NCBI GenBank assembly: GCA_021234155.1
Contig: JAJEKV010000004.1
Location: 20,811,619-20,875,618 of the forward strand
Length of the DNA: 64,000 bases
From: Isoetes taiwanensis
Taxonomy: Eukaryota > Streptophyta > Lycopodiopsida > Isoetales > Isoetaceae
Direction: 5' to 3'
The position numbers and the translations under genes are program-made. Positions within the stretch are counted from its first letter, which is position 1. Each line of letters begins with the position of its first letter. Of this stretch, positions 6,511 through 56,983 are shown piece by piece. The notes under the pieces were generated by a model, which saw only the letters and a program-made list of their open reading frames with translations, was not told the DNA's origin and made no database searches.

Positions 6511-7060
6511 ATTGAATATAAAGAGAACTTGTTTGTACAATCAAGGGTTAGTTTCTATGATTGATTCACAAAGAGAACAGAGAGAGACGGACACAACCAA
6601 GTGTTATCTAGAATTCACATAGCCACCTACCTGAATTCTGGCTGGACTCGTTTCCATGGGGCGCCTCCATCTTATGGGAGTTGAGAATTCAGCTGTTACT
6701 TCACAGGGACGACTGTTATGGTGATCTTCTGCAAGTGTATGATGGCGCTCAGCTCCTGGCCTTCCTTGGTCGATCTTCAGGAGTCAATCCCAAGGATAGG
6801 GGTCAAGCTGGCATCCAAACTTGGCAATCCCCATCTTTGCCCTAATCGATTGGGGCGGTGGCGCCCCCAAATGGTAATTAGCCTAATTTCCTAGGTTATA
6901 GGTTATTATTATTAATGTGTTAAATTAGCATAGCTAATTTAATCCTTTTTAAGGTAACTCCCTAGGTTGCAATTAAATTCCCATTGCAAATACATGACGT
7001 AGATCGTATTTCCCATTACAAATACATGACGTAGACCGTATAACTACATGGAACGTCACA
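6511..7060 (-). repeat. Gypsy-1 3' LTR, truncated copy
   Basis: Matches 18,892-19,442 almost base for base and ends GGAACGTCACA like the full LTR. The other roughly 1,050 bp of the LTR are absent because the CACTA element sits at this point; they should be found beyond the left edge of the window. Confidence 0.85.
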
Positions 7061-7724: not shown

Positions 7725-8194
7725 CTTCAAGCTTACCGAGCCGGGGTTGATAGCATCGTTGATGGTGCGGCCTTGAGATTCCCGCATGAAGTCCGGATAG
7801 TGCTTCTCAAGGTCTATCTTCATCACCCGTGTAGCATCCTCAACGGTAAGTGCTTCCACTTGACCAAGTATTGTAACATTTGAGTCCTTAAATTACGTTT
7901 GTAAGCTCGATCAAGAAGAGCTTCAGGCACTATTTCCAGCTGCTCTTCAGTCATTTCTAGGAGAGTTGGGGTATCCAAAACCTCCTCTGGGTCAGGGGTG
8001 TGTTGCTTCAGAAGACTCACGTGAAAGACCTTGTGGATCTTCAAGCGGGGTGGCAGGTCCAAGCGATATGCTTGTTGTCCGACGCGTTCAGTAATCTTGA
8101 ACGGCCCAGCCCATCTGGGTGCCAACTTCTTCTGATTACCAATTTTAAGCTTGGCTTGTTTTACTTTGATCTTAAGCCAAACCGATTCGCCCAC
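7725..8194 (-). pseudogene. Gypsy-1 integrase C-terminus with chromodomain remnant
   Basis: The frame holds the integrase C-terminal block (LAPRWAGPFKITERVG...AYRLDLPPRLKIHKVFHVSLLK), typical of chromovirus integrases, followed about 50 residues later by EALLDRAYKRN...QYLVKWKHLP. This matches a plant chromovirus chromodomain (Y-L-V-K-W). After K-H-L-P the frame shifts, and the next block V-E-D-A-T is in another frame (near 7,840-7,820), which continues to about 7,725. Chromodomains steer insertion towards particular chromatin, classically H3K9-methylated heterochromatin. Here the domain is broken by the frameshift, and the second aromatic-cage region (usually E-x-A-T-W) reads A-T-R. Confidence 0.75.
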
Positions 8195-8377
8195 CGGAAG
8201 ATCCGTGGGGTTCGGTGCTTATCCGCTAGACTCTTCGACGACGACTGCAAGGCCAATAAGTAGCCCCGAACTTCCTCCACCAAGGCTGCATTTCTAAAAG
8301 GAGTTGTTGAGAGACCTCCACTTTAGAAACAGGGGTTATGCCACGGTGCGGAGTAAGACATTGATAGCCATAATTTA

Positions 8378-9154
8378 TCATGAAGGGAGACATTTTAGAA
8401 GACTCTGCTTTGTAATTGTTATAGGCTTAATTCTACCAAGTAAATATAATCCGCCCATTGTGATTTGTTTACTCCATACATAGCTTAAGTAGCATATCTT
8501 CGATAATACGATTGACACGCTCGTTTGACCATCCGTACGAGGATGGTAGGTCGTACTCATGGCAAGCTTGGTCGGATGGTGGCGAAGAAATCTTTCGCAC
8601 GCATCGATAAACTTAGGATCCCTATCCGATACAATTACTCTCGGCATCCCGTGCAACCCGAAAATTTCCTTTGCAAAGAGCAAGGCGGTGTCGGCGGTGT
8701 CCGTGGTGCGACATGGCGGGAAGTGAGCCATCTTTGATAATTTGTCGACCACGACCATTAAGGCATCATATCCACGGAGAGTGCGTGGAAGGCCCTCAAT
8801 GAAATCCATGGTTATGACTTCCCACTTGGCGTTGGGGACATCCAAAGGTTGCAACTCCCCGGGAACTCTTAATTGCTCAGCCTTGGTTTGCTGACAAACC
8901 TGACATTGCTTGATGTACCTAGCAATATCCTTCTTCATCGAAGGCCAAAAATAGCTGGAGCGGATCTTAAAGTAAGTTTTCATAAAACCCGCATGTCCGC
9001 TATATAGGCTGTTCAGCGTGTCATGGAGAATCAGCTTTCGCACCCCTGAAGTCGCTGGAACACACAACTTATCTTTGTAATATAATAAATTGCCCTCTTT
9101 CTTATATGAACGGAATGCTTCACGTTCTCTATTGGTATGGGCTTCCTTACCCAA
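8378..9154 (-). pseudogene. Gypsy-1 integrase, zinc-binding and catalytic core, broken
   Basis: Residues about 45-90 carry the H-H-C-C zinc region (HDTLNSLYSGHAGF...CQVCQQTK). The core follows with TMDFIEGLP (first Asp) and IVSDRDPKF (second Asp). The third acidic residue should follow TYHPRTDGQT, where families read T-E-R-x-N; here the text turns into S-V-S-I and loses the family pattern, pointing to a frameshift at about 8,510. The protein is therefore not functional as written. It lies between the RNase H and the integrase tail, the normal Ty3/gypsy order. Confidence 0.85.
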
Positions 9155-9167
9155 ACTTTCCCAAACA

Positions 9168-9899
9168 TTACGAGAATTGGGATCGTGGCGTGGTCTGTTC
9201 TATCCGCTTCCCAAACTCTTCGGTGAGTGTGGAAATGGCATTACAATGGGTCCGGGTTATGAAGGGATGGCGTGACAAAGCATCCGCGAACCACATTGTG
9301 CTTTCCCGGCTTGTATACAATCTCAAGTCATATTCCTCGAGGAATTCCATCCATCCGCTACCGACGTAGATTCGGGTTTGGTGGGTGGATAAATAGCGGA
9401 GACTCGATGATCCGTTATCCGGCTGAAATCTTCTACCAAGAAGGTAGTGTCTCCAAACGGAGAGCACGAACAACCGCCCCAAAGAACTCTGGTCATGGGT
9501 AGGATATCGCTGCTCTGCATCATTCATCTTCTTTGAATCGTAAGCAACAACTCTCCCCTCCTGCATTAGAACTCCACCAGTAGCTATCTTACTAGCATCG
9601 GTGGCTACCGATTTATCCTTTTCAGGATCAGGCAAGGTAAGGACCGGTGCAGATGTTAAGGCATCCTTGAGCTTCTGAAAGCCGACTTGGACTTTTGTTT
9701 TCCAATGTTCCATCCAATCCTTTACTTTCTCATGCCTTGTGAGATTAGTAAGAGGTGCGGCAATTGTTGCAAAATCCTTAACAAATTTCCGATAATATCC
9801 TGCGAGTCCCAAGAAACTCCGGACCTCTGAAACATTAGCTGGAATGGGCCAATCCTTTACTGCTTCTATCTTGGTCGGGTCTGTAGCAATTCCTTTCAC
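9168..9899 (-). pseudogene. Gypsy-1 RT thumb/connection and RNase H, broken
   Basis: Begins with the post-catalytic RT block ([20 protein letters not shown], then [18 protein letters not shown]), followed by RNase [17 protein letters not shown] holds the first catalytic Asp, and [19 protein letters not shown] replaces the usual E-x-N-Y-x-x-x-[DE]-x-E segment. FADALSRHP near the end is the last RNase H motif. Several positions deviate (the T-D-x-S-x-x-x-x-G core is kept), and the middle part shows frameshift-like text after HYLLGRRF. Confidence 0.8.
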
Positions 9900-10528
9900 G
9901 AGATAATATGCCCCAAATAGTCTACCCTGAGTGGCTTAACTTGCATTTAGAGAACTTGGCAAAGAGTCGATGATGCCTTTAGCTTTTGCAAAGCTAATCG
10001 AAGATGTTGTTCATGTTGCTGCAAGGTTTTACTATAGATGAGAATGTCATCAAAGAAAATGACAACAAAGTCATCCAAGTATTGGCGGAAGATGTCATTC
10101 ATCAACCGCATAAGCGTTGTGGGCGTTGGTCAATCCAAAAGGCATGACGGTAAATTCATAATGCCCATATATCGGTACAAAAGCGGACTTATGGATGTCC
10201 TCTTCCTTTATCCTTATCTGATGGTACCCGGGCGCCAAATCAACCTTTGAGAAATATTTTGCCCCTTGTGGCGGTCCATAAGATCATCCGCCCTAGGCAA
10301 AGCATAGCGATTCTTGATGGTATGCTTATTGAGTTGCCTATAATCAATACACATCCTTAAGGAGCCATCTTTCTTCTTGACAAAAGAATAGGGCGCCAAA
10401 TGGTGAAACTTGGGCGAATAAACCCCAGATTCAATTAACTCTTGTAGCTGTTTCTTAAGCTCGCTAACTCCAGGAGGACTCATTGATGATGGGGGCTTTT
10501 CTTTGGGTAGGCTTAGTACCCGGTTCAA
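9900..10528 (-). pseudogene. Gypsy-1 reverse transcriptase palm, broken
   Basis: The right part reads [44 protein letters not shown] (split here from its continuation), the RT fingers of Ty3/gypsy elements, then [14 protein letters not shown]. The frame breaks after that. The catalytic FFDDILIYS box is present in another frame at about 10,032-10,060. At least two frameshifts separate the motifs. Confidence 0.85.
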
Positions 10529-10698
10529 GAGTTATCTCACATTCCACCCCTCGAAAGGAGGAAGCTTGTGGATCTCATCCGGAAAAAGATCGCTAAATTC
10601 TCGAAGAAGGGTAGCAATGTCCGATGGTAAAGGCGTCGATTATTTGCTGCTTTGTTTGAGTCGACTCAATAGAAGCAAGTTTAATGAGGCAAAGGAGT

Positions 10699-11110
10699 TC
10701 ATTCTGGCATTATAGCTTTTCCTAGCTGCTTTATTGACATTGGTCGCATAGCGGAGTGTAATGAATCACCTTTTATCGTCACACGTGCTCCATTAGCGGC
10801 GTTGAAGGTGACCTCCCGTTTCTCACAGTCTATGTGGGCCCTGGCAGACGCTAAAAACTCCATTCCCACAATAAGATCATATTTGCCAATGTCCATTAAC
10901 TTTCGGCACCCAAGGCAACCGGTGCACTCGGCAACCGCATTTTAAGGTTAATGGGCGGCCATGAGTGTGTAATCGATCTTACCGCTAGCTAATGTGACTG
11001 GCTTAGGTCGGGATCTCAACGTTTCCAGCTGCAGTACCTGGGCCATTCTAGGAGAAGCAAAATTATGCGTACTACCCGTGTCCATCAAAATTATGAAGGG
11101 CTTACTGTCT
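10699..11110 (-). pseudogene. Gypsy-1 aspartic protease, broken
   Basis: ILMDTGSTHNFAS, encoded at about 11,094-11,050 on the minus strand, is the retropepsin active-site motif. The later block YDLIVGMEFLA (about 10,880) matches the D-x-I-L-G-M-x-W-L segment before the flap end in plant gypsy proteases. The two blocks are in different frames. Confidence 0.75.
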
Positions 11111-11269
11111 ACTTGGCCTATTGTAGAAATAATGTATAGGCTGACTTTCAGCGTTACTTTGTTTCTATAGCGGCAAGAATATGAGACGCACCATGAATGT
11201 ACTCGGGAGCCTCGTCCTCAAAGCAAGATTGGACTCCAAATCTTCCCAATCCAGGTCGGCCATGGCGGT

Positions 11270-11610: not shown

Positions 11611-12479
11611 CTACGCTATCGACTTTGGGTCGATGGCCTTGACCATTCGTTTAATGGATGGGGCCAACCCTTCAATGTAGCCCTCTACTGCTCTTTTCTC
11701 ATTCATTCCTGGCACGTACAACCTCAAACGCATGAATTCGTCAGTGTAGGCCTGCACGGACATGCCCTTCTGTTCCAACCTGTAGAAGGTCTGAATCTGT
11801 TGGCATTTGTGCGCACGAGGCACGTAATGCGATTTAAAAGCCTTAGCAAACTTCCTGAACTTGCATCTGCTCCTATCCAGGTGTTTAGCTCTGGCGTAAC
11901 CCTTCCACCAAATACGGGCAGCTCCGGTAAGGTTCGTGGTGGCGACCTTCCCTGTATCTTTCTCTGTCATTCCATAGGACTTCCCGAATTCCTTCATTTC
12001 GTCCAACCAAGATTCCGCATTCAAGCCTCCTCTGGATTTCCCATCAAACTGAGCCAACTTCCGGTTCTTCCATATACTAGTGATGGCTGTATCAACGGTT
12101 TTTCGGTATTCCTTATCCTTACGCCTTGAATGGTCACTGTCTGATAGCGAGGACCCCGAAGAACCCGAAGTGGTTGAATGTGAGGAAGCGGCGCTATCCT
12201 TAGAGGAACTTCGATGACGCTTAGCATGAGTCCTCCTCATGCAGTCATGGGGCTAGCTCGGGAGGAGATGGGTGTTGCAGGTGTGGACTCAATGGTCGCG
12301 GAGGTAATTCCGGTCCGTCCCCCGAGTATGTGGCGGTGGATTGGTATGCAACACATAAGCCCGTAACTTCGCCGAAGTTGCCTTTTCATTAACATCAATT
12401 CTGTTGGGGGTGAGCCTACCGGGCGTTGGAGGGTGTTTGCCAAAGCGTTACGCATAACCGATCTAAAGGAAGCATTCAT
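11611..12479 (-). pseudogene. Gypsy-1 gag (capsid/retrotransposon gag domain)
   Basis: The 11,611-12,240 frame (209 residues) has an S-rich basic start, then a retrotransposon-gag domain: LAQFDGKSRGGLNAESWLDEM, ATTNLTGAARIWWKG, FKSHYVPRA, FYRLEQKGMSVQAYTDEFMRL. This is the normal capsid-like order. The N-terminal extension seems to continue in another frame up to 12,479 (MNASFRSVMRNALANTL). Gag forms the virus-like particle in which the element's RNA is packaged. As written the gene lacks a continuous path into protease. Confidence 0.8.
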
Positions 12480-12734: not shown

Positions 12735-13196
12735 TCAGATGTGGTACTCTCCGTACTGGCTTCGGACGAGTTTATAGCGTGCCCAGGCTTGGACAATGAT
12801 TGCTTGGTACTCCCATGTTGGGCTGATAATCAGAAGGTTAAAGAGCCTTCGCATCGCATAAAAGAGTTGCCAAAGGTGGTCGTTGGCGTCCTCGAAGGCT
12901 TCGTGCCTGGTCATATTCCAGTAGTCCCAGGTACGACACAGGGTCATCTTCAGATCCTCGAAAGCTCGATCCCTGAGGATGTTAACTATCTCTAGCCCTT
13001 TGTCAGGGTCGTAGAGTTCCTCTGGTGGCGGTGGTTCGGTTTCATAGCCTTCCTCCCACTCTGGATATTCACCATATCTCTGGCCATAGTCCTGGTCTGG
13101 CGGCCCGGGATCGTCCCTCCTAACCATATCGGTGACTCTCTCCTCATACTCCCAAATGGTTTCCTCTGCAACATAGTTGGAATGAATAGAGAACAT
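12735..13196 (-). CDS. Gypsy-1 ORF-C, unrecognised 153-residue protein
   Basis: I do not recognise this protein. The N-terminal half is strongly acidic with prolines (DDPGPPDQDYG, ETEPPPPEELYD). The C-terminal half is predicted helical with many aromatics (CRTWDYWNMTRHEAFEDAND, LWQLFYAMRRLFNLL, AWARYKLVRSQYGEYHI). The minus strand reads ...CAACTATGTTGCAG just before the codons for EETIWEYEERV, so a splice acceptor could define the true start and the first ten residues may be intronic. It lies between the H3-fusion/ORF-B block and gag, same strand. It is uninterrupted, unlike gag-pol. Confidence 0.5.
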   Translation of the reverse strand: MFSIHSNYVAEETIWEYEERVTDMVRRDDPGPPDQDYGQRYGEYPEWEEGYETEPPPPEELYDPDKGLEIVNILRDRAFEDLKMTLCRTWDYWNMTRHEAFEDANDHLWQLFYAMRRLFNLLIISPTWEYQAIIVQAWARYKLVRSQYGEYHI

Positions 13197-13489
13197 TTTG
13201 TAATTCCATTATATTCTAAAGTTTTAATGCTCTTGAAGAGGATGTCATAAAAAAAAACACACAATTCAATAATACTCCTCAAGAGAACTTTGTATTTAAT
13301 AAGTAAATAAGGTACACCATTTGTCAATATGGTCCATTCAATTGCCAATCGAAAATCCCAGAACACACATATGTATATATATAACAAAAATTAGCAAAAC
13401 ATATATATACAAGAAATTTAATGCGTCCTACGGTGCATGTTCGAGTTTTAGCATGTTCCTACGTGCATGTTTCTTTACATTCTATAACT

Positions 13490-15864: not shown

Positions 15865-17238
15865 CTAAGATTGCTCCCCCCGTATCCTACGGGCGAGGGC
15901 TAAATCCTTAGGCATTATGGTGACCCTCTTTGCGTGGATAGCGCAAAGGTTGGCGTCACCAAAAAGTGCCACTAAGTAGGCTTCAGCAGTCTCTTGGAGC
16001 GCCAAAATTGCAAAGGTATGGAAACGGAGATCGGTCTTAAATTGCTGTGCGATCTCCCGTACCAGCCTCTGAAAAGGTAGCTTCCTGATCAGAAGGTCCG
16101 TGGACTTCTGAAATTTGCGGATCTCCCGCAATGCCACGGTACCGGGTCGGAACCGATGAGGCTTCCGCTGTGCCCCAGGCCCCGACGATGTTGGCACCGT
16201 CTTAGCCCCAGCAACCGGCCGGGAGTTGTCCACTCGCTGCTGCCTCCGGTCGGAGCTGGTCTTCTTCCCAAAAGCCCCGACAGTCCTTAACTTATCCTTG
16301 TATTGACTGCCGGCCTTATGGGCGACTCCCTTCCTCCGGAGCTTAACGGTCGGATGCGTCGGTTTTGGGTTCGGGCCACTCCCAGATGCACCTCCCTCCT
16401 GTTGGTCCCGCCGGTCTTGTCGGTCCCGCTCATCTTGCTCCAACTTCTCGCGCTCTTCCCGAGCTCTCCTTAGGTCTTCTTGGATCTGAGCAAAAAGCTG
16501 GGCTGCGGCACGGCGATTAAGTTCAGCGTGGTACCGTTGTGGCCGCAGACCCATATCTATCTGAATAGTTGTCAGATAGTCTATGCTGATGTCGGGGATT
16601 TCTCCCCATACAAAGCTGTTGGAACCCTCATGCCAGCGGTATGGGGGAACCTCAATGGCTCTGCCATCAATGACGGCAAAGCCGTCCCCGAGGTACCGGT
16701 ACTCCCTACCCCGGGCTGCTGTGTCAGCCCGCTCAATCTCCCGGTGGTCGTCCTCCCTGGCAAAACCCCTAATACGGTCGGCCTCCGTCCTGACATCTTC
16801 CTCCTCCGTATGGCCTTCCTGTTCGGGAGGATAAAATTTGATGAGCATCATCACCATATCAGGTTGCTCAACAAGGGTATATGGGAGCTGGCGTAGGTTC
16901 AGCCGGATGAGGAATGGCTCTGAGAAGTGATAGATAGGATATGGAATCCTATCGTTGTTCTCAAACCTGTTGACCAGCTCATCCAACAAGATGTCGATGA
17001 GGGCTGGGTCAGTAGCCATGTGCTTAGCAATCATGGCGTAGATCTCCACGATGCCCATGGTGGACGGATCCGGAGCGCTCTTGGTAATGGCCATAGCGGG
17101 TAGTGCGGCGCTGGCGGCGAAGGGGATGGCAAAGGGGGCGCTAAGATGCACAAGGCACAAGGGCGCAGGATCAAGGTCCGGTCTGGTGGCGATGGCGGAG
17201 GGCGGCTCAGGCGGTTGGAGGCACGGAAGCAAAAGCAA
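15865..17238 (-). CDS. Gypsy-1 ORF-A: novel N-terminal domain fused to a histone H3 core
   Basis: Intact 457-residue frame; a second start at residue 49 (17,094, GCTATGGCC) has better context and skips a low-complexity leader. Residues 55-140 form a helical region of unknown family, 180-250 hold the [12 protein letters not shown] motif shared in pattern with ORF-B, 240-282 are a charged R/E/D coiled-coil-like stretch, and 285-357 are a basic linker. Residues 358-457 are histone H3 from the end of the tail to the C-terminus: [18 protein letters not shown], then [35 protein letters not shown], and [38 protein letters not shown]. By eye about four fifths of the positions agree with plant H3. K56, K64, K79, R83, C110, H113, K115, K122 and D123 equivalents are kept; loop 1 has normal H3 length, unlike CenH3. 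The tail motifs around K4, K9 and K27 are absent. It is the first ORF after the leader, same strand as gag-pol. Confidence 0.88.
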
Positions 17239-17829
17239 ATGACAGGAAATGGTTTGCTAAACAGCCAATTAACTTTTAAAATTTCAAAATTTTTTTCTTA
17301 TTAACTTCAAAATTTTATTATTAAAAAAATTATACGGCGGAAATACGCGCCACATACGGTCGGGCGCCGATGGCATTATACGGGCTTCTGCCTCGACTGG
17401 GCGTCGTCGAAATGCAAGCGGCGCCCGAGTTGACCTGGCGGGCCCGCGTTGACTCAAGTCTGACGGGTCGGGCGCCGACAGCATTTCGGGCGCTTCGCTC
17501 TTGACTGCAAAGCGACAAAAGGCAAGCGGCGCCCGAGTTCGTTTTTGGGCCTGCCCTTGACCATTTCTCGCCTAGAGTTGACTGTTCTAGGGTAATTCAA
17601 GTATGCCCGATCCAATGGAACCATCATCTTCGTCATTTGAGCTACCCACTAGCACCTGCTAGGCCTCCAATCTTGGCCCCTCCACTTCAAAGCTACAATT
17701 TCTTAACTTAACCTAACACCAAGCCAAACAACAAAGAGAACTAACGACACATTGACTTAGCCTCCTCCTAACTACCGTGCTACGAGTTAGTGTTTGGCCA
17801 GTGCTATGATTTCGAGCAACCGAAATCAC
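17239..17829 (-). other. Gypsy-1 leader with duplicated GC-rich hairpin block
   Basis: Between primer site and ORF-A. Two copies of a roughly 80-bp block (17,360-17,437 and 17,468-17,550) each start with TCGGGCGCCGA and end with GGCGCCCGAG, so each can fold into a long hairpin closed by GGGCGCC/GGCGCCC. AT-rich sequence follows towards ORF-A. In retroelements this region carries packaging and translation signals; a role here is inferred. Confidence 0.5.
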
Positions 17830-17842
17830 GGCTCTGATACCA
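17830..17842 (-). other. Gypsy-1 primer-binding site (initiator tRNA-Met)
   Basis: The minus strand reads TGGTATCAGAGCC, the usual plant Ty3/gypsy and copia primer site complementary to the 3' end of initiator tRNA-Met, one base inside the LTR end. Confidence 0.9.
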
Positions 17843-17843
17843 C

Positions 17844-19442
17844 TGTGACGCTCCCAGAATATATACGACCCTCGGACGTATACATACGGGGACTTTCCCC
17901 TCCCATGGCAATCATCTCACCATGAGCAGGGCCCTCCGTCTATTTCGGGCCATCTATGAAATGAGGCCCGAAAGAAGGACACGAAGGGGTCATTCGGCCC
18001 ACGCCTTCAGTGGGACTCCTACGTCGCGGAAGCATGAATACAAGGGTTAGCACACAGCATGAATATACATAAATAACCACCACGAAGGGTGGCGCATCCA
18101 TCTAATATACCAACGGCATAGAATATGCATCTAATCCTACGAAAACACCCAGAACCCAGGTTCTACCCCGGCTCAGACTCCCGTGAGGATCGACTGACGG
18201 CTGGGCCTCAAGAGATCAGCAGACCGAGTCTTGGCATGGCGTTGGCTGGCATAGAACATTGGCTAGGGTTGTCCACTCCATCCGCCCCTCCTGTGCACAC
18301 TTTGCAGATGGGTCAATTCATGCTATGGCTTTGCTATAGCCTTCCGGAGACGCAAACTCAGGGCATCACCCTCTGAGCCTACTCCAGGTTCATGACGCCT
18401 GGTCCGATGAGGCAGGTCGGGGAGGCGTCCCTTCCGGATCACAAGTGGTTCCATGGGTGAGCTAGAGAATACGTGCCGCATCGGCGACGACCCGCATCCG
18501 TGCAGACTTACTCACCCTAAATCTACTCAAAGTGCATGGTGCTCCATACGGATCACACCTCTACACCGAGGGAGTGTCGGACCCATACCCGCCCCTCACG
18601 TGACCGGCCATCGGGCCTAGCCCCCTTGTAGGAGTCTCGGGAGCCTTGTATGCTCATGCAAGACCCCACCCCTCATGTCACCACTTGTGTTCCTTGTGCG
18701 GTGCTAAGCGGACCATAGCATCTAGGACCCGGTAGGTTCTTGTGCACAGCCGCATTTAATGGGACTCTACTGAGCTATCTAGGAGCATACACTACAATAC
18801 ACCTGGTTCAGAGGCCTCTACCCCGTAATCCCCCGTTTGAGTCAGATTGAACAAAGAACTAACAATCCATCCTTTCAGAGTAAGAACCAGAATTGAATAT
18901 AAAGAGAACTTGTTTGTACAATCAAGGGTTAGTTTCTATGATTGATTCACAAAGAGAACAGAGAGAGACGGACACAACCAAGTGTTATCTAGAATTCACA
19001 TAGCCACCTACCTGAATTCTGGCTGGACTCATTTCCATGGGGCGCCTCCATCTTCTGGGAGTTGAGAATTCAGCTGTTACTTCACAGGGACGACTGTTAT
19101 GGTGATCTTCTGCAAGTGTATGATGGCGCTCAGCTCCTGGCCTTCCTTGGTCGATCTTCAGGAGTCAATCCCAAGGATAGGGGTCAAGCTGGCATCCAAA
19201 CTTGGCAATCCCCATGCTGCCCAATCGATTGGGGCAGGTGGCGCCTCCCCAAATGGTAATTAGCCTAATTTCCTAGGTTATAGGTTATTATTATTAATGT
19301 GTTAAATTAGCATAGCTAATTTAATCTTTTTTAAGGTAACTCCCTAGGTTGCAATTAAATTCCCATTGCAAATACATGATGTAGACCGTATTTCCCATTA
19401 CAAATACATGACGTAGACCGTATAACTACATGGAACGTCACA
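17844..19442 (-). repeat. Gypsy-1 5' LTR, complete (1,599 bp)
   Basis: Starts TGTGACGCTCC and ends GGAACGTCACA on the plus strand, an 11-bp near-perfect terminal inverted repeat with TG...CA ends. Its left end abuts the primer site, and its last 551 bp match the truncated copy at 6,511-7,060. CCTGG follows at 19,443-19,447 and should be the 5-bp target duplication. Confidence 0.85.
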
Positions 19443-19785: not shown

Positions 19786-20373
19786 TGTTAGTCCTGTGCC
19801 TCCTGGTACAGGACTATTCATGCATTCGACGGACCAAGTCAAGTCCAAGGATCCACAACCAGGCACGGGTCAGTCGTCAAAAGCTCAGCAGAAGACCAAG
19901 CAGCAGACCACGCAGTCAAAGCCTGCGTCCGTCAACAAGAGGCGGCGCTCAGACAAGTGAGGGCCCGTCACCGCCCGCGTCAGCGTCAGCGTGATTCTAG
20001 GCACTTCAAGAGGCACCGCCAGCATTCCTGCAAATCAGGCCTCCTTCCAGGAGTCGGCACCGAGATCAGTCAGAGTGTCTATATTGGGCCAAAGGCCATT
20101 GTACTATATATATGAGTAGAGCTAGCACATGAGTTTTAGATGAGTTTTGAGTCTTGTCTCATTTCAGTTTTCTCTCGGTTGCGAGAGCTCATGTATCGCC
20201 ATCATTGATATCAAGGAAGCTTATCATTGTTGTCTCATTGTTTGTTGCTTCCTTTTCTCCTCCTTTGTTTTCTTGCAAATCCCGCGTGACATAGTCCCCG
20301 GATTCTCCTGTTAGATCCACGGGTCCTCACAGAGGGCTGTCTTGCAGAAGTTCCCGAACCCAGACCCCAAATA
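19786..20373 (+). repeat. Gypsy-2 5' LTR (588 bp)
   Basis: TG start; the expected CA end reads TA here (ACCCCAAATA), a point change compared with the 3' LTR. Nearly identical to the 3' copy except for a block of about 100 bp around 19,905-19,990. Confidence 0.88.
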
Positions 20374-20374
20374 C

Positions 20375-20392
20375 TGTCGCCGCTGCCGGGTC
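20375..20392 (+). other. Gypsy-2 primer-binding site, tRNA-Asp-like
   Basis: TGTCGCCGCTGCCGGGTC matches 14 of 18 positions of the tRNA-Asp primer site used by Athila/Tat elements (TGGCGCCGTTGCCGGGGA, from general knowledge). It lies one base inside the LTR. Confidence 0.6.
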
Positions 20393-20420
20393 TGATTCGA
20401 CTTTCCTCTAGTTTGTGGCC

Positions 20421-22162
20421 ATGTCTGCCCGAAACTTCACGCCAGAAGAACTTCTTTCCCAGACGGCGTCTCGCTTGGAGCGTCATCAGCGACGGGAAGT
20501 TGTTCGCGATATGTATGGATCTGCTTATGACATTGAGGGAGGCCACATTCGGTCGAGGGCTCAGTCGGCGCCACCCACCCCTCGTGTCATGTCTCGTCCA
20601 AATTCCCCGCCTCAAGCGTGCAAACATTGCTCACAGCCTCAGTCACCTCATCACTATCAGGAGCCCTATCAGACCCAACCTTCTCAACCTTACTTTCATA
20701 CCCCAGAACATGCCTACATCCATCATTCTTCTGGCCATACGCCTCTGCCTTCACAACCATCATCTCCCCCGGGTGGGCAGGGATATCCACATGTCTCTTT
20801 TGCTCCTCCCAGGAATTTTCCTTCCCTACATTTCCCACTGCTCTTCCTGTTTACAACCTTACAGACCTCAAAACCAATGCCCCGGCACCTCCAGTACCTC
20901 CTTCTCAGTCACCCCTTCATCAGGGTCCTTCAGGCACCATGCCACCTCCAACTCCACCTCAATATAATCACTATTCCGTTCCTGTTCAGCCAAGCACTTT
21001 CACCTCTACCTTTCAGACCCTTAAGCTGACTTATCCCACCTTTGGAAACACGAAAGGCAAACCATTAGACCAGTGCTCAGGCCCACATGGAAGAATTTGA
21101 GGCTCTGGCTATCCTAAATGGTCATGCACAACCTCAACTGAAATTCCACATCTTTTCCACCACCCTGCGTGGCTCTCCTCATCAATGGCTCATGTCCAAC
21201 AAAAGCCACTGGAAACAAGATTGGTCAGAAATGAAAACTGCTTTTCTTTCTCACTATATGGGACCATGGATGATGATCAACTTCATCTCAAACAACTCAA
21301 TGACCTTCAACAAGAGCCCACGGAGTCTGCCAGGGATTTTGCAGATCGACTTCACATCCTGCTCAGCAAACTTAAGGAGTACCCAACACAGAGCCAGATC
21401 TTGGTCTGGTTTCTCCAAGGACTTCCTCCAGCTATCCGACTCATGACTGAATACCTGCGCCCGAAGACTTTGGAGCAGGCTATCGACCTTGTCAACCACT
21501 CAATCAATGTCTCCTCCCATGGCGTGGCTCTTCAGGAGCTCCCTTTCATTCCACCCGTCATGGTTCCACAGACTGCTGTCCAACCTCAACACGCCAATCC
21601 GCAGCGCAGTCAGATCTGGTGCCATATCTGCAAATACCAAGGCCACTTGGCGAATGAGTGCAACTCCACCAATGGCCCGCCTCATTGTAAAAGATGCAAC
21701 ATGTGCAATCATGCCACGGAAGAGTGCACTCGCACTCATCCTACACCTTTCCGCAACAAACTGGTTTATCAAGTGCAAACCACACCTCAGCAACAATCGC
21801 AATATCAGCAGCCACCAATGCAGGTGCAACCCAATCAACTCTATCACCAACAGGAGCCACAACGGGGACCCAACACACGCCCTCCTTTTGATCCTTCTAA
21901 AGCTCAGTGTTATCACTGTCACGAATGGGGTCATACCACCACGGCATGTCCTCAACTTCCACAAGTTCAGGTACAGCTTCCTGGCACAAATCAGACCACC
22001 TCGGTCCGCCTCACGACTTACCAACTCTGGATTGCCAATGGCAAACAAGGCCCGCGTCCTGTTCTTCGGAAGCCACCTCGTGCGCCTCAGCAATCATGCT
22101 ATCAACCAGCTCCTGCCAATCAACCTCAGATGGATCAACAAGCACAGGAAGAAATTTTTTAG
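20421..22162 (+). pseudogene. Gypsy-2 gag with three CCHC zinc knuckles, frameshifted
   Basis: Starts MSARNFTPEELLSQTASRL, followed by a long P/H/Q-rich region. The capsid-like part (FHIFSTTLRGSPHQWL, AFLSHYMG, LNDLQQEPTESARDFADRL, LVWFLQGLPPAI) is spread over three frames. The C-terminal part carries CHICKYQGHLANEC, CKRCNMCNHATEEC and CYHCHEWGHTTTAC, each a C-x2-C-x4-H-x4-C knuckle for nucleic-acid binding. The last frame ends in a TAG at 22,160-22,162 that is directly followed, in the same frame, by the protease region. Confidence 0.8.
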
Positions 22163-23254
22163 GCTCTTAATCCTCCAGTCCAGCCGTCAAATTGGGTTGG
22201 TTTGGTTTCACGCCAGACCAGGGCGTCACGTCCCTTCACCGTTATTCCTAATGGCACGCAACCTGCCTTTGCAGTCGACACAATTCCTCATGAAGAGGAA
22301 AAAAAGGTTCACTTTGCCCCTGACTTGGAGAAACTCATGCCGCATGTCATGCCTAAAGTTCGCCAAAGCATTTTGAACCTCATGCAAGCTGCTGAAGGCC
22401 GCACGTTGGCTAATGTTCATGCCACCACCAGAGCTCAACAACGACAAGATACACCTTCCACATCTCAACCTCCACGCTCTCAGACATATCCAAATATTGC
22501 TGCAGAGGTTGACCTACTCAGAGAAGTTGCTGCTTCATTACCACGCACTCCAGCACCCGTGGATCCAGCAGATCCTTTTTCTCATGTGCCTCTGGAACTC
22601 CAAGAGGAGCTGACAAAAATCAAAATTCCCCTAGGTCTTGCAACAATTTTGAAACTATGTCCTGCTCTCAAGGACCAGTTACCACTCCCGACCGTTTTGG
22701 TTGGGGCTGTTGCTACCTCTACACCCACGGTCCATGCCACGGTGGGCAATCAACAAGTCAATCATGTTCAAATTGACGGAGGTAGCGCTGTCAATCTCAT
22801 CACGGATAAACTCCGCAAACAAATGGGCATCAAGCAACTCTATCGTGCCCCATATGACATCAAATTGGCTAATGGCCATATCACGAGACCTCAAGGCGTC
22901 ACGCCTCTTCTTCACATCAACATTGGTGATCTCCGATTCCCCTTGGAATTTGGTGTTTGGAAGGCTGGAGAAGATCCAGGTGATTATGAAATGTTGGTCG
23001 GCAGACCTTTTCTCCGCCAGGCCAAGAGTATCCATTACTGGGCCATGGATCAGTTAGTCATCACAGATGGTCACCTCAATGCCACTATGGACTTGGAAAC
23101 CGGTAAGATCATTTCGGTCGACAATGTTGAACCCTCTCTCTCCGACACTGATTCTGAGGACGCCCAGAATATCTATCAAGTTCAGGCTCCACCTGCGAGT
23201 CTGCCTCTGTCATCCTACCCCGAATATGTTGATCCTTGGGGAGATGACTCTTGA
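22163..23254 (+). CDS. Gypsy-2 aspartic protease region
   Basis: In frame with the end of gag after one TAG. The retropepsin core is at about residues 190-290 of the 350-residue open part: HVQIDGGSAVNLIT holds the catalytic Asp in a D-G-G-S context (most plant gypsies have D-T-G-S or D-S-G-S), and YEMLVGRPFLRQA is the later hydrophobic-Gly motif. The N-terminal 180 residues are a linker of unknown role; the acidic C-terminus (SLSDTDSEDAQ) leads into the RT part in another frame. Confidence 0.7.
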   Translation, partial: ALNPPVQPSNWVGLVSRQTRASRPFTVIPNGTQPAFAVDTIPHEEEKKVHFAPDLEKLMPHVMPKVRQSILNLMQAAEGRTLANVHATTRAQQRQDTPSTSQPPRSQTYPNIAAEVDLLREVAASLPRTPAPVDPADPFSHVPLELQEELTKIKIPLGLATILKLCPALKDQLPLPTVLVGAVATSTPTVHATVGNQQVNHVQIDGGSAVNLITDKLRKQMGIKQLYRAPYDIKLANGHITRPQGVTPLLHINIGDLRFPLEFGVWKAGEDPGDYEMLVGRPFLRQAKSIHYWAMDQLVITDGHLNATMDLETGKIISVDNVEPSLSDTDSEDAQNIYQVQAPPASLPLSSYPEYVDPWGDDS

Positions 23255-24308
23255 TCAGGACCAGGCTGTGGCTGCCTTGCTTGACCCCTACCTGGCTCCT
23301 TGCAATCGAATCCAACGTGTTGATCACTTTTCAGATACTGAACCTCCTGCAGATCCTGTTGATGTACACGCTGTCATGAAGCAACCTTTGCTTGATGAAA
23401 CTCAGCAACCTCTCTTCTTCACCACGCAGAGTGCCACTCATCCTGTCATGCTTCAACCTCCTGCTCATATTGTCAAAGACACGGAAGTTATCCCACATAT
23501 TCAGACTCCTGAAGTCGAGATTGTGGACGTCGGCAACAATCAGCCTATCTGCATTGCTGCAAATCTTCCGACACCCTATCGTAATAGGGCCGTCACGCTC
23601 TTCAAAAAGTTCAAACACATTTTCGCCTGGAGTTATAGAGACCTTCGGGGGATCAAAAAAACCTTGGGGGAACTCACCATTCCTACCAAATCCGATGCAC
23701 GTCCCGTATAGCAACGACAGTACCGGCTCAACCCCAATTACCGTGATCGCGTCAAGACAGAAATTGACAAACTCCTTGCTGCAGGTTTGATCTATGAGGT
23801 CAAACATTCTGAATGGGTGAGCCCCATTGTCATTGCACTGAAACACAATGGAAAGATCCGTGTTTGCGTGGACTACCGAAAACTAAATCAGGCCACGGAG
23901 CGTGATCATTTTCCACTTCCTTTCACAGACCAGGTTCTGGAAGAGGTTGCTGGACATAAGATGTACTCCTTCATGGATGGTTTTTCTGGCTACAATCAGA
24001 TCTCAATCAAAGAATCTGATCAACTCAAGACTACTTTCACCACCCCGTGGGGCACATTTGCCTACAAGGTGGTTCCTTTTGGATTATCAAACTCTCCATC
24101 AACGTTTCAACGGATAATGCTCTCAGTTTTTCATGATTTTATGAAGGAAAATCCCTTCTTGCAAATTTTTCAAGATGACTTCTCTGCCTACAGTTCCATG
24201 GCTGACCATTTGGATAAATTGGAACTCGTCTTTCAGAAATGTGATGAGTCCGGCATTAGTCTCAATCCTGAGAAATGCACTTTTGCGTCACTTCCGGTGT
24301 CCTGTTAG
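23067..24308 (+). pseudogene. Gypsy-2 reverse transcriptase
   Basis: Reading from a linker (FKKFKHIFAWSYRDLRGI) into LNPNYRDRVKTEIDKLL, then SPIVIALKHNGKIRVCVDYR, MDGFSGYNQI (first catalytic Asp) and FQDDFSAYS (the F-x-D-D box). An in-frame TAG at 23,709-23,711 interrupts the conserved P-V-[RK]-Q-R-x-Y-R segment. A frameshift at about 24,290 separates the fingers/palm from the thumb. Otherwise the domain is well conserved. Confidence 0.85.
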
Positions 24309-25228
24309 GACACGTTGTCAGCAAAGCAGGTATCACCACGGATCCTGCCAAAATCAGTTGTGTGCTCAAGGCTCAAGCACCAGCCAATATCAAGGAGACA
24401 CGCTCTTTCCTGGGTAAGGTCAATTATTACTCCACCTTCATTCCTGGACTTGCAGCTATTGCAGATCCCATTCATAAACTCACGGGTGATGAATCCACCT
24501 GGGCTTGGAATTCCCAGGCGGATGCTGCTTTCCAACAGTTGAAGCTCTTGCTTACTCAGGCCCCGGTTCTTGTTCCTCCTCAATGGGACAAGCCCTTTCA
24601 TGTCCATGTAGATGTCTCGGCGTTCGCTATTGGAGCTGTTCTTTCTCAAGAATATGATGCGCACACTGACAAACCAAACCGATATGCTAGCAGAAAACTC
24701 AATTCTGCTGAGCGCAACTACTCTGCCACCGAGCGTGAAGCCTTGGATTTAATTTTCTGCGTTCAACGCTTCCGTCACTATCTTTTAGGCAGTCAGATCA
24801 AGTTCTTTGTTGACCACCAAGCACTTCTTTATTTGATCAACAAATCCACGGCCACGGGCCGCATTGCTCGTTGGGTCCTCCTTCTGCAAGAATTTGCACC
24901 TTTTGAAATTGTTCAGAAGGCAGGCAAATCTCATGTTGTCCCGGATTATCTTTTACGCATCCACACAGATGATCCCTCCACTGGAGTCTCAGACGCCTTT
25001 CTTGACGCTCAACTCTTTCTGGTCACGACAACACCACATTGGTTCCACGACTTTCAGCAGTATCTCCTCACAGGCGCTCTTCCACCAGAGGACACCACGC
25101 TCTCTCCAGCCAAGCGACAACCCCGTCGACACCAATTTCTCCGCGAGGTCCGTGACTACACCATGGTTGCAGGCCATCTTTACAAAAAGGGTAAGGATAC
25201 CGTCCTTCGACGCTGTGTTCCCTCATGA
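24275..25228 (+). pseudogene. Gypsy-2 RT connection and RNase H
   Basis: LLGHVVSKAGI, KETRSFLGKVNYYSTFIPGL and AFQQLKLLLTQAPVL are the RT tail. HVHVDVSAFAIGAVLSQ carries the RNase H first Asp (VDVSAFAIGAVL), and ERNYSATEREALDLIF the E-x-x-x-x segment. KFFVDHQALLYLI gives the next Asp. The usual D-x-L-S-R end is DYLLRIH. The frame changes at about 25,205 into integrase. Confidence 0.85.
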
Positions 25229-26369
25229 GGTCCCAGATATTGTCCGAGAAGCCCATGAAGGGCTCGGTGGTGGTCATTTTCATGGTGACACCACGACACG
25301 CAAAATCCTTCTTGCTGGTTATTTTTGGCCCACGCTCTTCAAAGACGCTCACGCCCACGCCCGCACGTGTGATGCTTGCCAGCGTGTGGGACGGCCCATG
25401 GCCCGTGACGCTCTTCCCTTGACGCCGGTCGCCACGCCACTTCCCTTCAGCAAATAGGGGATGGATTTTGTGGGACCCATAGATCCTCCTGCGCGGCACA
25501 CCCGTGCCCGCTACATTCTGGTTCTCACTGACTACGCTACCAAATGGGCGGAAGCTTGCACACTTCCAGACAACACTGCGGCAAGCACAGCCAAGGTCAT
25601 CTACCAGCAAATCATTACGCGTTTTGGCTGCCCCACGGAGCTGGTCAGTGATCGAGGTGTCCATTTTATCAATCATACCATCAAGGAGCTGACGGATTAT
25701 CTATTGATACATCATCACAAGAGCACACCTTACTATCCTCAAGGGAACGGTTTGGCTGAAAGCACCAACAAAACTCTGGTCACCATTCTCAAGAAAATTT
25801 GTGACGCTTCTCGCACTGACTGGCAAAACAAGCTTCCTACTGTTCTTTGGGCTTACAATACTTGTTTCAAAATTGCTGCTGGTCACACTCCTTTCAAATT
25901 GGTTTATGGTCAAGAAGCTCTCATGCCTTTTGAATACATACTTCCAACTCTCCGTTTCCAACTGGCTACTGCCCATAATCCGCCTGCTGCACTCAAAGAA
26001 AGGGTTTATCAATTAGAACAGTTGGATGAACTTAGAAGGGATGCTTACATTCGTGTTCTTCATGGACAACAGTTGCAAAAATCTTTACATGACAAACGTC
26101 TGAAGACAAAAACATTCAAAGAAGGAGATTTGGTTCTTCTTTATGATTCTCGTTACAAAAATTTTCCGGGCAAGTTAAAGTTTCGATGGCTTGGCCCTTA
26201 TCAAATTGTTCAAGTGGTGCAACCCAGCGTTTTCAAGCTGGCTGAATTAGATGGCACTCCATTACCTACACTGATTAATGGCTTTCGCCTCAAACAATTT
26301 CATACAACAGAAAGTGACAATCATACCATAGATGTTGTTCCAGACAAAGACACAACAGATAGTGACTAA
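25205..26369 (+). pseudogene. Gypsy-2 integrase
   Basis: The zinc region (REAHEGLGGGHFHG...ARTCDACQR) gives H-H-C-C. A single TAG at 25,456-25,458 stands where families have Trp before G-M-D-F-V-G-P. The catalytic core is then open to the end: GMDFVGPIDP (D), LVSDRGVHF (D) and GLAESTNKTL (E), the complete D-D-E triad, followed by the C-terminal domain (KFRWLGPYQIVQV) and an acidic tail. No chromodomain, which agrees with a Tat/Athila-type element. Confidence 0.88.
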
Positions 26370-27302
26370 ACCAGCGGCATATTTATATTATGTAGGTGGA
26401 ATTTTTACGAAATGTGGGCACAGCCCAGCTATTTCCGCTATGGGCACTGCCCTATATACAAAAACGGGCTCAGAGCCCTATCTACTAAGTCCTAAGGAGA
26501 ACACCCTCTACTCCGGGTTCGGAGCAGAGGTGATATGCAGGATGTGGTACCAGTTGTTCTCAGGGTCCCAGCGCAGGTGCAGAATCACCTCCATCCCGTT
26601 GGTATGGGGATCGGCATGCTCAGCCATGCCGGCACACCACCCGTCCATGGCAATGCCACGATTGTGGCACTGCCAGAGGTCCAGACAATCCATTTTACAA
26701 GTAATCCACTCCAGGCAGTTGGAAGGCATAGTGCATTTGTCATGCAAACCAGCAGCAGACATACTGAGCGCCATCGGATGTCTTCGCTTCACTCCCTGTT
26801 CGTCTTATATAGCCAACCGAGGACCTCCCTGTCGACGTGGACCAATCAGAAAATTCGCCAACGTGTTTGCAATGCAAGGCTGTTTCTAAAATGAGAATCT
26901 TTTCTCCCGCCGCATATCTAGCCATGGTACCTTCTGATACCTTCGTTTTAATGATATTCCACTTCGAGTTGCCAGCATTAAATGACATTCCTTCTTTTCA
27001 CGCCCGTCGAACATTAATGTGCGTCCTTTCGCCAGTTGTCACATCCGATCATTCTCTCACTGTCTCATCTCCACCGTTCCTTGCTTCTCCCTTTACTGTT
27101 TGGGGACTTAGCCAAAATTTTGCCTTTCAATCGCCTCCTTAGCATCTATCGCCACCTGGCATCATCCACGGTTGCTGTTTTGCCCTCATAAAGCCCCTTC
27201 GCTTCCACTTGCGCGCCCTAAGCCTTTTCGTCTCTCTGCGCCTTCGTCTTCTATTCTCCGCTCTCCGCCTTTGCATCACCGTTCTTTTCCGAAGCTCTTT
27301 GC
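26370..27302 (+). other. Gypsy-2 spacer between integrase and the extra ORF
   Basis: No plus-strand gene recognised. A minus-strand open stretch of 94 residues (26,508-26,792) with many C/W/H residues exists; Tat/Ogre-group elements can carry antisense ORFs here, but there is no further support. The 27,160-27,300 stretch is CT-rich and leads to ATGGCTGCACCC, the start of the extra ORF. Confidence 0.4.
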
Positions 27303-28099
27303 CATGGCTGCACCCAAATTTCCTACACTTCAAGCTACTGCTCCCAGGGAACCGGCTCTTTTCGAGTCAGTATCTTTCTTGACGCCCACTTTTCGTGAAG
27401 CCCTTGTTGGCCCAAGTCGTGAAGTTGCGGAACGCCAGAAGCTTTATGCATTCTCACAAATGGAACTCCCGGCTCCAAATCCAGACCAATTGAAGCAGTT
27501 CATCGCTCACATCGTCAACAGCCCGAATGGATACGCTACTGTGGTCGATGGCACCATCATTTTGCTGACCCAGTCCCTGATTTCTGAGATATTCCATATT
27601 CCTTTGCAAACCCCTTGTTTATCTTGGGCTGCCTTACAGGATCTCGATGTCACGGAGTTCGGTGCTCCTGCTTATCAAGCGAACATGCATCGCCTGACAA
27701 ATATTGCCAAGTTCCTTGGGTATTCTACCAAGAACACCCATATCAATAAGCCTTTCTATAATTTGGTGATCACTGCTATCCGCTCCAACCACCACGTTGA
27801 TTGGCCCCAGCTGTCGTTCTACCGCCTTCTTCAAGAAGTCGACCGTATTAGGGCTGCCCCCTCCTCTATCTCTGAAGTTTCCGTGGGTGGCCATCTTCAA
27901 GCCATCATCCGTCATTACTTTCCTCCATCACCTTCTGATTCTCATGCTTCCACTCAGCAGTCCCTTCCTCAAAATCAACCAGTTGGCCCTTCACGCCCTT
28001 CTTCTTCTGGTCATGTCCAACATAACACTACGCATGTCACTGTCTCCTCCTCCTCTACAGAAACAAGGCCCTCCAGTTCTCATCATGTCTCACAAACGT
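27303..28099 (+). pseudogene. Gypsy-2 extra 3' ORF, N-terminal part
   Basis: Starts at ATGGCTGCACCC (CCATGG context). About 265 residues: a helical domain (FREALVGPSREVAERQKLY, QFIAHIVNSPNGYATVVDG, LISEIFHIPLQ, HRLTNIAKFLGY, WPQLSFYRLLQEVDRI) followed by an S/P/Q-rich linker. I do not recognise the family with confidence; the layout resembles ORFs found after pol in Tat-type gypsies. It is interrupted at 28,100 by the nested LTR element, with target duplication AACGT on both sides, and continues in the same frame at 31,583. Confidence 0.55.
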
Positions 28100-28561
28100 T
28101 GTTGAAATATGGGGTTCTTGGCATGCACCTTGCTGCAGCAGACCATGGCTGCCGGATGCAACAAGGCTGCCACAAATGCTCAAGAATGACAAAACAAAGG
28201 GGGAGGAAACTCCAAGAACACAAACAGGGCACAAATGCCAAGAAATGAACAAAGTGGATCATATTGCCAAAATGAGGCGCTCCAAAACGTGAGCTGAAAC
28301 CTCCACAAAATGAGGCGCTCCAAAACGTGAGCTAAAACCTTCACAAAATGAGGCGCTCCAAAACGTGAGCTAAAACCTTCACAAAATGAGGCGCTCCAAA
28401 ACGTGAGCTAAAACCTTAAACAATGAGGGGAAATGCTCTCTCTATATAGTGAGCAAACCCTAACCCTATATGATGACAACATGTGGCCATGTGCCACTAA
28501 CATCTATGATGACATGTGGCCTATGCCACTAACGTCTATGACTTAGCCCAAGGGGCTAACA
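28100..28561 (-). repeat. LTR of the nested element, left copy
   Basis: 462 bp. Contains four to five tandem copies of a roughly 31-bp phrase (AAAATGAGGCGCTCCAAAAC, then GTGAGCTAAAACCTTCAC) between about 28,269 and 28,425. Several bases differ from the right copy. Confidence 0.85.
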
Positions 28562-31117: not shown

Positions 31118-31577
31118 TGTTGAAATATGGGGTTCTTTGGCATGCACCTTTTTGCGGCCGAGACCATGGTGCCGGATGCAACAAGGCTGCCACAAATGCT
31201 CAAGAATGACAAAACAAAGGGGAGGAAACTCCAAGAACACAAACGGGGGCACAAATGCCAAGAAATGAACAAAGTGGATCATATTGCCAAAATGAGGCGC
31301 CCAAAACGTGAGCTGAAACCTCCACAAAATGAGGCTCCCAAAACGTGAGCTAAAACCTTCACAAAATGAGGCGGCTCCAAAACGTGAGCTAAAACCTTCA
31401 CAAAATGAGGCGCCCAAAACGTGAGCTAAAACCTTAAACAATGAGGGGAAATGCTCTCTATATAGTGAGCAAACCCTAACCCTATATGATGACAACATGT
31501 GGCCATGTGCCACTAACATCTATGATGACATGTGGCCTATGCCACTAACGTCTATGACTTAGCCCAAGGGGCTAACA
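31118..31577 (-). repeat. LTR of the nested element, right copy
   Basis: 460 bp, the 5' LTR of the minus-oriented element. Carries the same internal 31-bp tandem phrase as the left copy, with small indels. Confidence 0.85.
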
Positions 31578-31582
31578 AACGT

Positions 31583-33740: not shown

Positions 33741-33747
33741 GGGGGAG
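33733..33747 (+). other. Gypsy-2 polypurine tract
   Basis: TTGGTGGGGGGGAG directly before the 3' LTR start TGTTAG. Confidence 0.75.
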
Positions 33748-34341
33748 TGTTAGTCCTGTGCCTCCTGGTACAGGACTATTCATGCATTCGACGGACCAAG
33801 TCAAGTCCAAGGATCCACAACCAGGCACGGGTCAGTCGTCAAAAGCTCAGCAGAAGACCAAGCGGCCAGAACCCACTTGATCAAAGCACGTGATCCGTCA
33901 ACAAGAGGCGGCGCCGAGACAAGTGAGGGGCGTCACTTGCCCGCGGCGTCGCGTCGCGTGATTCTAGGCACTTCAAGAGGCACCGCCAAAGATTCTCCAG
34001 AATCAGGCGCCCTTCCGTGAGTCGGCACCGAGATCAGTCAGAGTGTCTATATTGGGCCAAAGGCCATTGTACTATATATATGAGTAGAGCTAGCACATGA
34101 GTTTTAGATGAGTTTTGAGTCTTGTCTCATTTCAGTTTTCTCTCGGTTGCGAGAGCTCATGTATCGCCATCATTGATATCACGGAAGCTTATCATTGTTG
34201 TCTCATTGTTTGTTGTTTCCTTTTCTCCTCCTTTGTTTTCTTGCAAATCCCACGTGACATAGTCCCCGGATTCTCCTGTTAGATCCACGGGTCCTCACAG
34301 AGGGCTGTCTTGCAGGAGTTCCCGAACCCAGACCCCAAACA
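33748..34341 (+). repeat. Gypsy-2 3' LTR (594 bp)
   Basis: TGTTAG...CCCCAAACA, followed by ACCAT and then LINE text. Confidence 0.88.
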
Positions 34342-56965: not shown

Positions 56966-56983
56966 AAAAAACTAGTGATCATC

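Follow-up and report, generated by a model that had tools for sequence, protein, structure and literature searches.

A predicted histone H3 fusion protein encoded by a Ty3/gypsy retrotransposon lineage of Isoetes taiwanensis

Can an LTR retrotransposon carry a histone of its own? The question is raised by a 64,000-nucleotide stretch of the Isoetes taiwanensis genome (here called the window), for which a preliminary description had reported an intact frame of 457 residues with a histone H3 C-terminus. That frame holds up. Between positions 15865 and 17238 only the minus strand is open, the plus-strand reading having 8 stops, and both Pfam and PDB matches identify the H3 sequence. The minus-strand frame has 457 amino acids when read from a TTG at 17238, and 463 codons from stop to stop. 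We consider the ATG at window position 17094 (codon 55) to be the most likely biological start of this gene, termed ORF1, giving a protein of 409 aa, because the ATG is kept in all 68 of the 68 ORF1 copies fetched and the sequence before it changes almost neutrally (dN/dS 0.60). The TTG start was dropped on the same evidence. From the primer site to the ATG runs a 735-nt leader with 8 upstream ATGs, whose frames span 3 to 66 codons. Between the primer site and ORF1 this leader also contains two direct repeats of 74 bp, which are 74% alike and 108 bp apart (window 17358-17539).

The sequence around ORF1 has the features by which a Ty3/gypsy LTR retrotransposon is recognized, namely LTRs, a primer site, a polypurine tract, gag and the order PR-RT-RH-IN (Table 1). 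We take the primer site TGGTATCAGAGC to be of the initiator tRNA-Met type. ORF1 lies where it had been placed, on the strand of the gypsy element between the primer site/5' LTR and gag, and is the first long frame beyond the primer site. ORF2 and ORF3 likewise precede gag; extra pre-gag ORFs also occur in some Tat/Ogre elements. The 5' LTR and the 3' LTR remnant are 97.8% identical over 553 aligned columns, and the insertion is therefore fairly young; pol is broken in this copy, its parts lying in several frames. The element had also been called a chromovirus. Its Ty3/gypsy class stands, and the chromovirus label depends on a Chromo match of 18.6 bits, below the cut-off of 25.1, in a frame-broken fragment. 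The gag-pol order is typical of chromoviruses, and the element resembles them in this order and in having a chromodomain-like fragment after the integrase. Chromoviruses, however, read chromatin via the chromodomain, whereas this element also encodes a histone and two further pre-gag ORFs. ORF2 matched one 471-aa protein on a 2,953-base ENA contig (42% identical over 99%). Pfam scans of a subset of the window ORFs found no second histone. On the outer side of the 3' LTR, from about 6510 leftwards, a CACTACAA terminus cuts the LTR at about 6513 with ATT at the junction; in our reading this terminus looks like that of a CACTA transposon.

Table 1. Features of the ORF1-bearing element, in window coordinates.
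Feature	Position	Strand	Remark
5' LTR, 1599 bp, TGTGACG...GCGTCACA	17844..19442	-	boundaries from sequence
Primer binding site TGGTATCAGAGC	17831..17842	-	at 5' LTR edge
ORF1, 409 aa from the likely ATG: acidic N-terminal domain, charged helix, basic tail, histone H3 core	15865..17094	-	
Acidic N-terminal domain of ORF1 (residues 1-190)	16525..17094	-	no relatives found beyond the elements of this genome
Basic tail replacing the H3 tail (residues 236-310, pI 11.8)	16165..16389	-	
H3 core of ORF1 (starting at H3 K37; residues 311-409 counted from the ATG; ~97 residues)	15868..16164	-	Pfam, PDB matches
ORF2, 467 aa	14261..15664	-	no Pfam family; one 42% relative
ORF3, 157 codons open	12735..13208	-	no family match
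gag	11611..12252	-	Retrotrans_gag 1.8e-16; Ty3_capsid 1.2e-15
pol remains: protease, RT, RNase H, integrase, chromodomain-like fragment	7826..11217	-	several frames
3' LTR remnant	6514..7060	-	polypurine tract before it

Profile and sequence comparisons identify the C-terminal part of ORF1 as an H3-type histone core. In the HMM search that had been proposed, Pfam Histone (PF00125) matches residues 338-453 of the 457-residue frame with E=9.8e-40 and 136 bits (cut-off 26.4). Among solved structures the best match is H3.3 (E=2.9e-51), to which the core aligns free of gaps. A search of protein databases with ORF1 returned 4271 matches with E<=0.001 among 8000 candidates scored, and the best 120 of these cover just 24-37% of the query, which is the H3 part. 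The element protein resembles CENP-A/CENH3 and other long-tailed H3 variants in joining an H3 core to a divergent N-terminal part. CENH3 has a longer loop 1 than canonical H3; the element core, in contrast, lacks the longer loop, is on average 88% identical to a host H3, and aligns ungapped to canonical H3 rather than showing a CENH3-type divergence.

We compared the core with that of a host H3 copy (L069) in 55 clean-core copies, that is, the 68 minus 13 that had stops, gaps or at most 75% identity to the window core. Identity ranged from 84 to 90%, with a mean of 88%. Across the 55 copies, identity is 98.5% at the 19 positions where the host core has K or R, and 85.2% at the other 78. All of the residues named in the preliminary description are conserved: K56 in 54/55, K64, R83, C110, H113, K115, K122 and D123 each in 55/55, and the K79 equivalent in 63 of the 68 ORF1 copies. 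L126 and R129 are unchanged in 54/55. DNA-contact and H3-H3' positions are among those kept. Seven changes are lineage-wide (Y54F, S86T, S87F, G102A, E105G, T107A and I124L, 55/55 each), V89I is found in 52/55, and at positions 54, 59, 86, 87, 89, 102, 105, 107, 124 and 125 the host residue occurs in at most 3 of the 55. Positions 87-90, the chaperone-recognition stretch, read FAIL in the element; of the 15 host H3 copies, the 4 that were read have SAVL, HAVL or TAVL there. The chaperone recognition site is on helix alpha2 of H3 (PMC9145170, in part).

Before K37 the residues are overall not H3-like. The canonical tail lysines K4, K9, K14, K27 and K36 were not found, and 66 of the 68 copies have R in place of K36. 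A short motif, A-K-T-V-P, stands before the core on the minus strand (window 16192-16206); each of its residues is kept in 63-65 of the 68 copies, and the linker is otherwise variable. It may mirror the A-R-K-S-A-P of the K27 region with 3 extra residues, a correspondence that is unproven.

The N-terminal part had been called novel, and database searches agree. Residues 50-340, compared with 5.8 billion proteins, gave 2210 candidates with common words, none of them at E<=0.01. Pfam matches up to E=10 for this part comprised Laminin_I alone, at 0.067. Relatives of ORF1 were absent from the viral contigs searched, as were relatives of the integrase piece, P0122 and ORF2; P0122, the sole query against prokaryote genome contigs, likewise found none there. 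The acidic domain carries a net charge of -14 over residues 1-190 (-9 over 1-110 and -5 over 111-190), and the charged stretch between it and the basic tail is predicted to form a long helix. A single-sequence AlphaFold2 model of ORF1 had a mean pLDDT of 40.2, was uninformative beyond approximately residues 200-235, and likewise failed to reproduce the H3 fold. The idea that the N-terminal part of ORF1 and ORF2 are diverged duplicates was unsupported (hhalign probability 0.3%).

To place the window copy among its relatives, the genome was searched over 1,658,258,908 bases in 1110 contigs; the published assembly is given as 1658.30 Mb in 204 scaffolds and 909 contigs (PMC8566536, in part). The 457-aa frame has at least 93 matches of 73-100% identity (93 scored of 11,551 first-look candidates), and other copies do carry the fusion, which excludes the one-off insertion of a host H3 pseudogene that the preliminary description had named as an alternative. 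A canonical H3 query, for which the best 150 of 9,064 candidates were kept, gave 15 full-length matches at 96-98% identity and 267.6-271.4 bits, each in one uninterrupted frame, which we take to be host H3. Below them the scores drop to 187.7 bits, where the remaining 135 of the best 150 begin, all cores at 71-86% identity. The union of the 93 ORF1 matches and these 135 element-type H3 matches covers at least 187 distinct places.

We read 68 of the 93 listed ORF1 copies (8 + 60 loci) from the better-scoring end of the list. The primer-site 12-mer TGGTATCAGAGC occurs exactly in 54 of the 68, and in 45 of those 54 it is preceded by GCGTCACAG. An ORF2 match lies beside ORF1 in 67 of the 68, two of these matches being short (36 and 196 codons). 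Searched by itself, ORF2 occurs in at least 91 places (of 7,479 candidates). Among the matches listed, 29 of the 91 have ORF1 just upstream at a gap of 197-265 bp (399 in one case) and 62 do not, although 15 of those 62 have an element H3 205-233 bp upstream. The other 47 of the 91 have no H3 match among the best 93 and best 150 listed, and there may be a branch of ORF2-bearing elements that lacks H3.

For reverse transcriptase, the best 150 places (of 24,148 candidates) include 26 that are preceded on the same strand by an H3 place at 0.5-12 kb, with a distance of 5.03-5.30 kb in 18 of the 26 and 5.97 kb in the window itself; the control pairings gave 1 case in reverse order and 1 on the opposite strand. 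The open frames that contain these 26 RT matches are 255 to 1633 aa long, and in some of them a stop interrupts the match. Because ORF2, RT and H3 recur together, we conclude that LTR, primer site, ORF1(H3), ORF2 and pol recur as one unit. One H3 place (C1019:5371153) lies 2.85 kb upstream of an RT match (C1019:5374319) in a long frame with one stop inside the match; this pair perhaps represents a subfamily without ORF2.

These counts bear on whether ORF1 instead belongs to the host, as a family of long-tailed H3 variants that are passive passengers of the elements or are kept by the host for its own purposes, with selection acting on the host. We regard this as very improbable. The 12-mer in 54/68 and the ORF2 match in 67/68 tie the gene to the element, and full-length canonical H3 matches amount to 15 loci only, at 96-98%, among the matches listed. 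In favor of a host family, the exact 12-mer is missing from 14 of the 68 and one of the 68 shows no ORF2 match in the sequence read, so that a copy outside an element may exist; strong constraint alone is also silent on who benefits.

Constraint was measured among the 31 copies that have no in-frame stop and at least 440 codons, using pairwise measures that are non-independent and not tree-based. Over the H3 core mean dN was 0.019 and mean dS 0.496 (465 pairs), a ratio of 0.039, and not near 1 as it would be under the refuting condition of the preliminary description. Codons 55-340 gave 0.083, 0.854 and 0.097 (465 pairs). The 54 codons before the ATG gave 0.440, 0.733 and 0.60 (441 pairs), and this weakly constrained lead serves as an internal control within the same copies. 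Pooled pN/pS with a codon bootstrap was 0.057 (0.027-0.098) for the H3 core, 0.166 (0.134-0.200) for codons 55-340 and 0.747 (0.623-0.899) for the pre-ATG lead. The acidic domain (codons 55-244) had a pooled pN/pS of 0.119, and ORF2, in 26 copies, 0.135. The dS of the H3 core is below that of the N-terminal part, for which we offer codon constraint or exchange between copies, and no other explanation.

When all 68 copies were analyzed, broken ones included, H3-core dN/dS was 0.038 as a median, 0.107 as a ratio of means and 0.140 when pooled. We attribute the higher values to frame-shifted H3 segments in copies like L009, L033 and L041, which have second matches at 47-70% identity. By divergence bin, from the closest to the farthest pairs, H3-core pN/pS was 0.14, 0.40, 0.31, 0.19, 0.11 and 0.17, a rise that we ascribe to the same frame-shifted segments. 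The four closest pairs had an ORF1 pN/pS of 0.27, as expected if inserted copies drift. Judged by these substitution patterns, strong purifying selection has acted on the fusion throughout the spread of the elements.

Host and element H3 cores differ with a mean pS of 0.95, near saturation. In an H3 DNA tree made by a quick method with one long branch (63 rows, 291 columns), 4 host and 59 element rows are split by a branch with an SH-aLRT of 98.9. At one locus, L077, the 421 bp read upstream of a listed H3 place contain an open frame with 39.6% identity to the N-terminal domain across 138 aa. At a different locus, L076, the H3 has T107A and I124L in common with the other elements and further host differences at 70, 86-88, 102, 103 and 125. 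We infer that the two loci, with one read each, belong to one deeply diverged subfamily, a grouping based on the ends of their H3 matches; the fusion would then be older than the subfamily split. The fusion is, as far as these alignments go, present in many copies and also in a deeply diverged subfamily, where at least one locus has it. Of the 15 host copies, the 4 that were read have Y41, E77 and L90; in the element, position 77 is E or Q and position 90 is L. The E77 and L90 of these host copies fit a capture from this line, and the H3 part was probably taken from a host H3 of the lycophyte lineage.

A host H3 pseudogene that landed in one element, or a frame open by chance, would accord with the broken pol of the window copy, as in a dead element. 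Against this stand the 93 or more ORF1 matches, ORF2 beside ORF1 in 67/68, a dN/dS of 0.039, the diverged locus with the same N-terminal domain before its H3, and the branch support of 98.9 between host and element. Copy number, dN/dS and the diverged locus refute both ideas, to which we assign a negligible likelihood. On the sequence evidence it is almost certain that this lineage of elements encodes an H3 fusion under selection.

What would such a protein do? In the reading that we favor, with confidence slightly above even, the captured H3 would pair with host H4, enter nucleosomes and anchor the element's domain there. The element H3 appears to have lost the normal tail, with K4, K9 and K14 gone and R in place of K36. 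Its core would pair with host H4 and the protein would be built into nucleosomes, with the H3 core as the anchor and the N-terminal domain displayed on chromatin. In such nucleosomes most of the usual H3 tail marks would be impossible on that H3 copy. The most likely location would be the element's own DNA or its integration sites, where silent chromatin could be avoided or used. Retroelement silencing proceeds largely via H3-tail marks, and we read the loss of these marks as a likely gain for the element. Incorporation into nucleosomes is favored because DNA-contact and H3-H3' positions are among the most strictly kept, beyond the needs of H4 binding. The FAIL sequence at 87-90 and the loss of E105 speak against it, and FAIL could weaken normal deposition. 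The 8 upstream ATGs in the 735-nt leader would also count against this reading.

The altered chaperone site would fit a different role, that of a decoy, in which the H3 core would titrate H4 or H3-H4 chaperones in the cytoplasm or nucleus and so reduce nucleosome assembly on new element cDNA, without stable incorporation. Many histone chaperones are acidic, as is the large N-terminal domain of ORF1 (-9 over residues 1-110, -5 over 111-190); the site itself is changed in the clean copies (S87F 55/55, V89I 52/55). A decoy, however, would need neither the DNA-contact arginines nor the H3-H3' interface, yet K/R positions are 98.5% host-identical, and we think this role rather unlikely. Alternatively, the protein could work inside the particle, where its H3 core and basic tail would bind the RNA or cDNA of the element and serve in packaging or before integration, perhaps together with host H4 captured alongside. 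The gene shares its element with gag and lies upstream of it, the tail is strongly basic (pI 11.8), and histones package the genomes of some DNA viruses (PMC12297534 and PMC9145170, each in part). This role is nevertheless distinctly improbable in our view, given that gag is a separate ORF and that H3 without H4 is unstable, with no second histone in the Pfam scans of a subset of window ORFs. The gag of this superfamily itself binds nucleic acid. H3 without H4 is not a stable fold.

Returning to the nucleosomal reading, we tentatively suggest that the protein could be the retrotransposon lineage's own histone variant, a nucleosomal H3 with an element domain for its tail that rewrites chromatin state; at present this is possible rather than probable. 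If true, there would be stretches of chromatin unmethylatable at K4, K9 or K36 (perhaps K27) on that histone. Among histones encoded by retroelements it would be the first, and it would be an answer of retroelements to silencing by histone marks. An element that supplies an H3 lacking the usual tail, under the constraint described above, makes it possible to test the long-standing question of whether transposons can change their own nucleosomes or merely read them, as with chromodomains. It also adds LTR retrotransposons to the captured-histone cases known from DNA viruses, and provides a natural fusion with a swapped H3 tail for use in research.

A retrotransposon-encoded histone was not found among the papers listed from the open-access literature searched, most subscription papers being outside its scope. 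The closest published case that we read is a Ty3/gypsy element of the orchid Phalaenopsis that carries a 2-ODD/AlkB-like m6A demethylase ORF (PMC9289625, in part). It is similar in that an additional ORF holds a captured host domain and occurs in many copies and subfamilies. It differs in that the domain is an RNA demethylase and the elements are large and, like those of the Tat family, have a dual RNase H. A section of the same article counts 15 extra domains in 121 angiosperm genomes, and no histone is among those it describes. For chromoviruses, a survey that includes lycophytes reports Tcn1-like elements in mosses and Selaginella (PMC2864245, in part).

Captured histones are otherwise described from viruses. 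Large DNA viruses, such as DSLPV1 and phycodnavirus MAGs, encode single H3s (PMC9145170, in part). As in the element, there is one H3 of host origin, and some have an N-terminal extension without known homology, of about 170 residues in two MAGs. The 87-90 site is altered in both, as TAIL in DSLPV1 (PMC9145170, in part) and FAIL in the element. In contrast to these viral H3s, the gene described here belongs to a retroelement, has a 310-residue N-terminal part in place of the H3 tail, and is found at no fewer than 187 places in one genome. The bracovirus histone CvBV-H4, which has an extended N-terminal part and enters host chromatin, and nudivirus Orf1 are likewise viral histones with an extended N-terminal part; they differ in being an H4, or an H4-H3-like doublet at 30-40% identity, and neither is from an LTR retrotransposon (PMC9145170, in part). 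The strings 'retrotranspos' and 'retrovir' have 0 occurrences in the main text of that article.

The window contains several other repeats. A second Ty3/gypsy element occupies 19786-34339 on the plus strand, with LTRs that are 93.8% similar. Two of its ORFs (27172-28248 and 32822-33880) have no Pfam family, and a 470-bp repeat within it, at 28097 and 31115, is 96% identical. On the minus strand at 37836-39170 lies a 444-aa ORF with an RVT_1 match (5.2e-36), which had no match to the gypsy ORFs in a self-search of the window and is probably LINE-like. A tandem array with a 19/57-bp unit, T-rich on the plus strand, follows at 39433-40865, and a satellite-like tandem array with a unit of ~361 bp, whose copies are about 84-94% alike, extends from 49464 to 56969.
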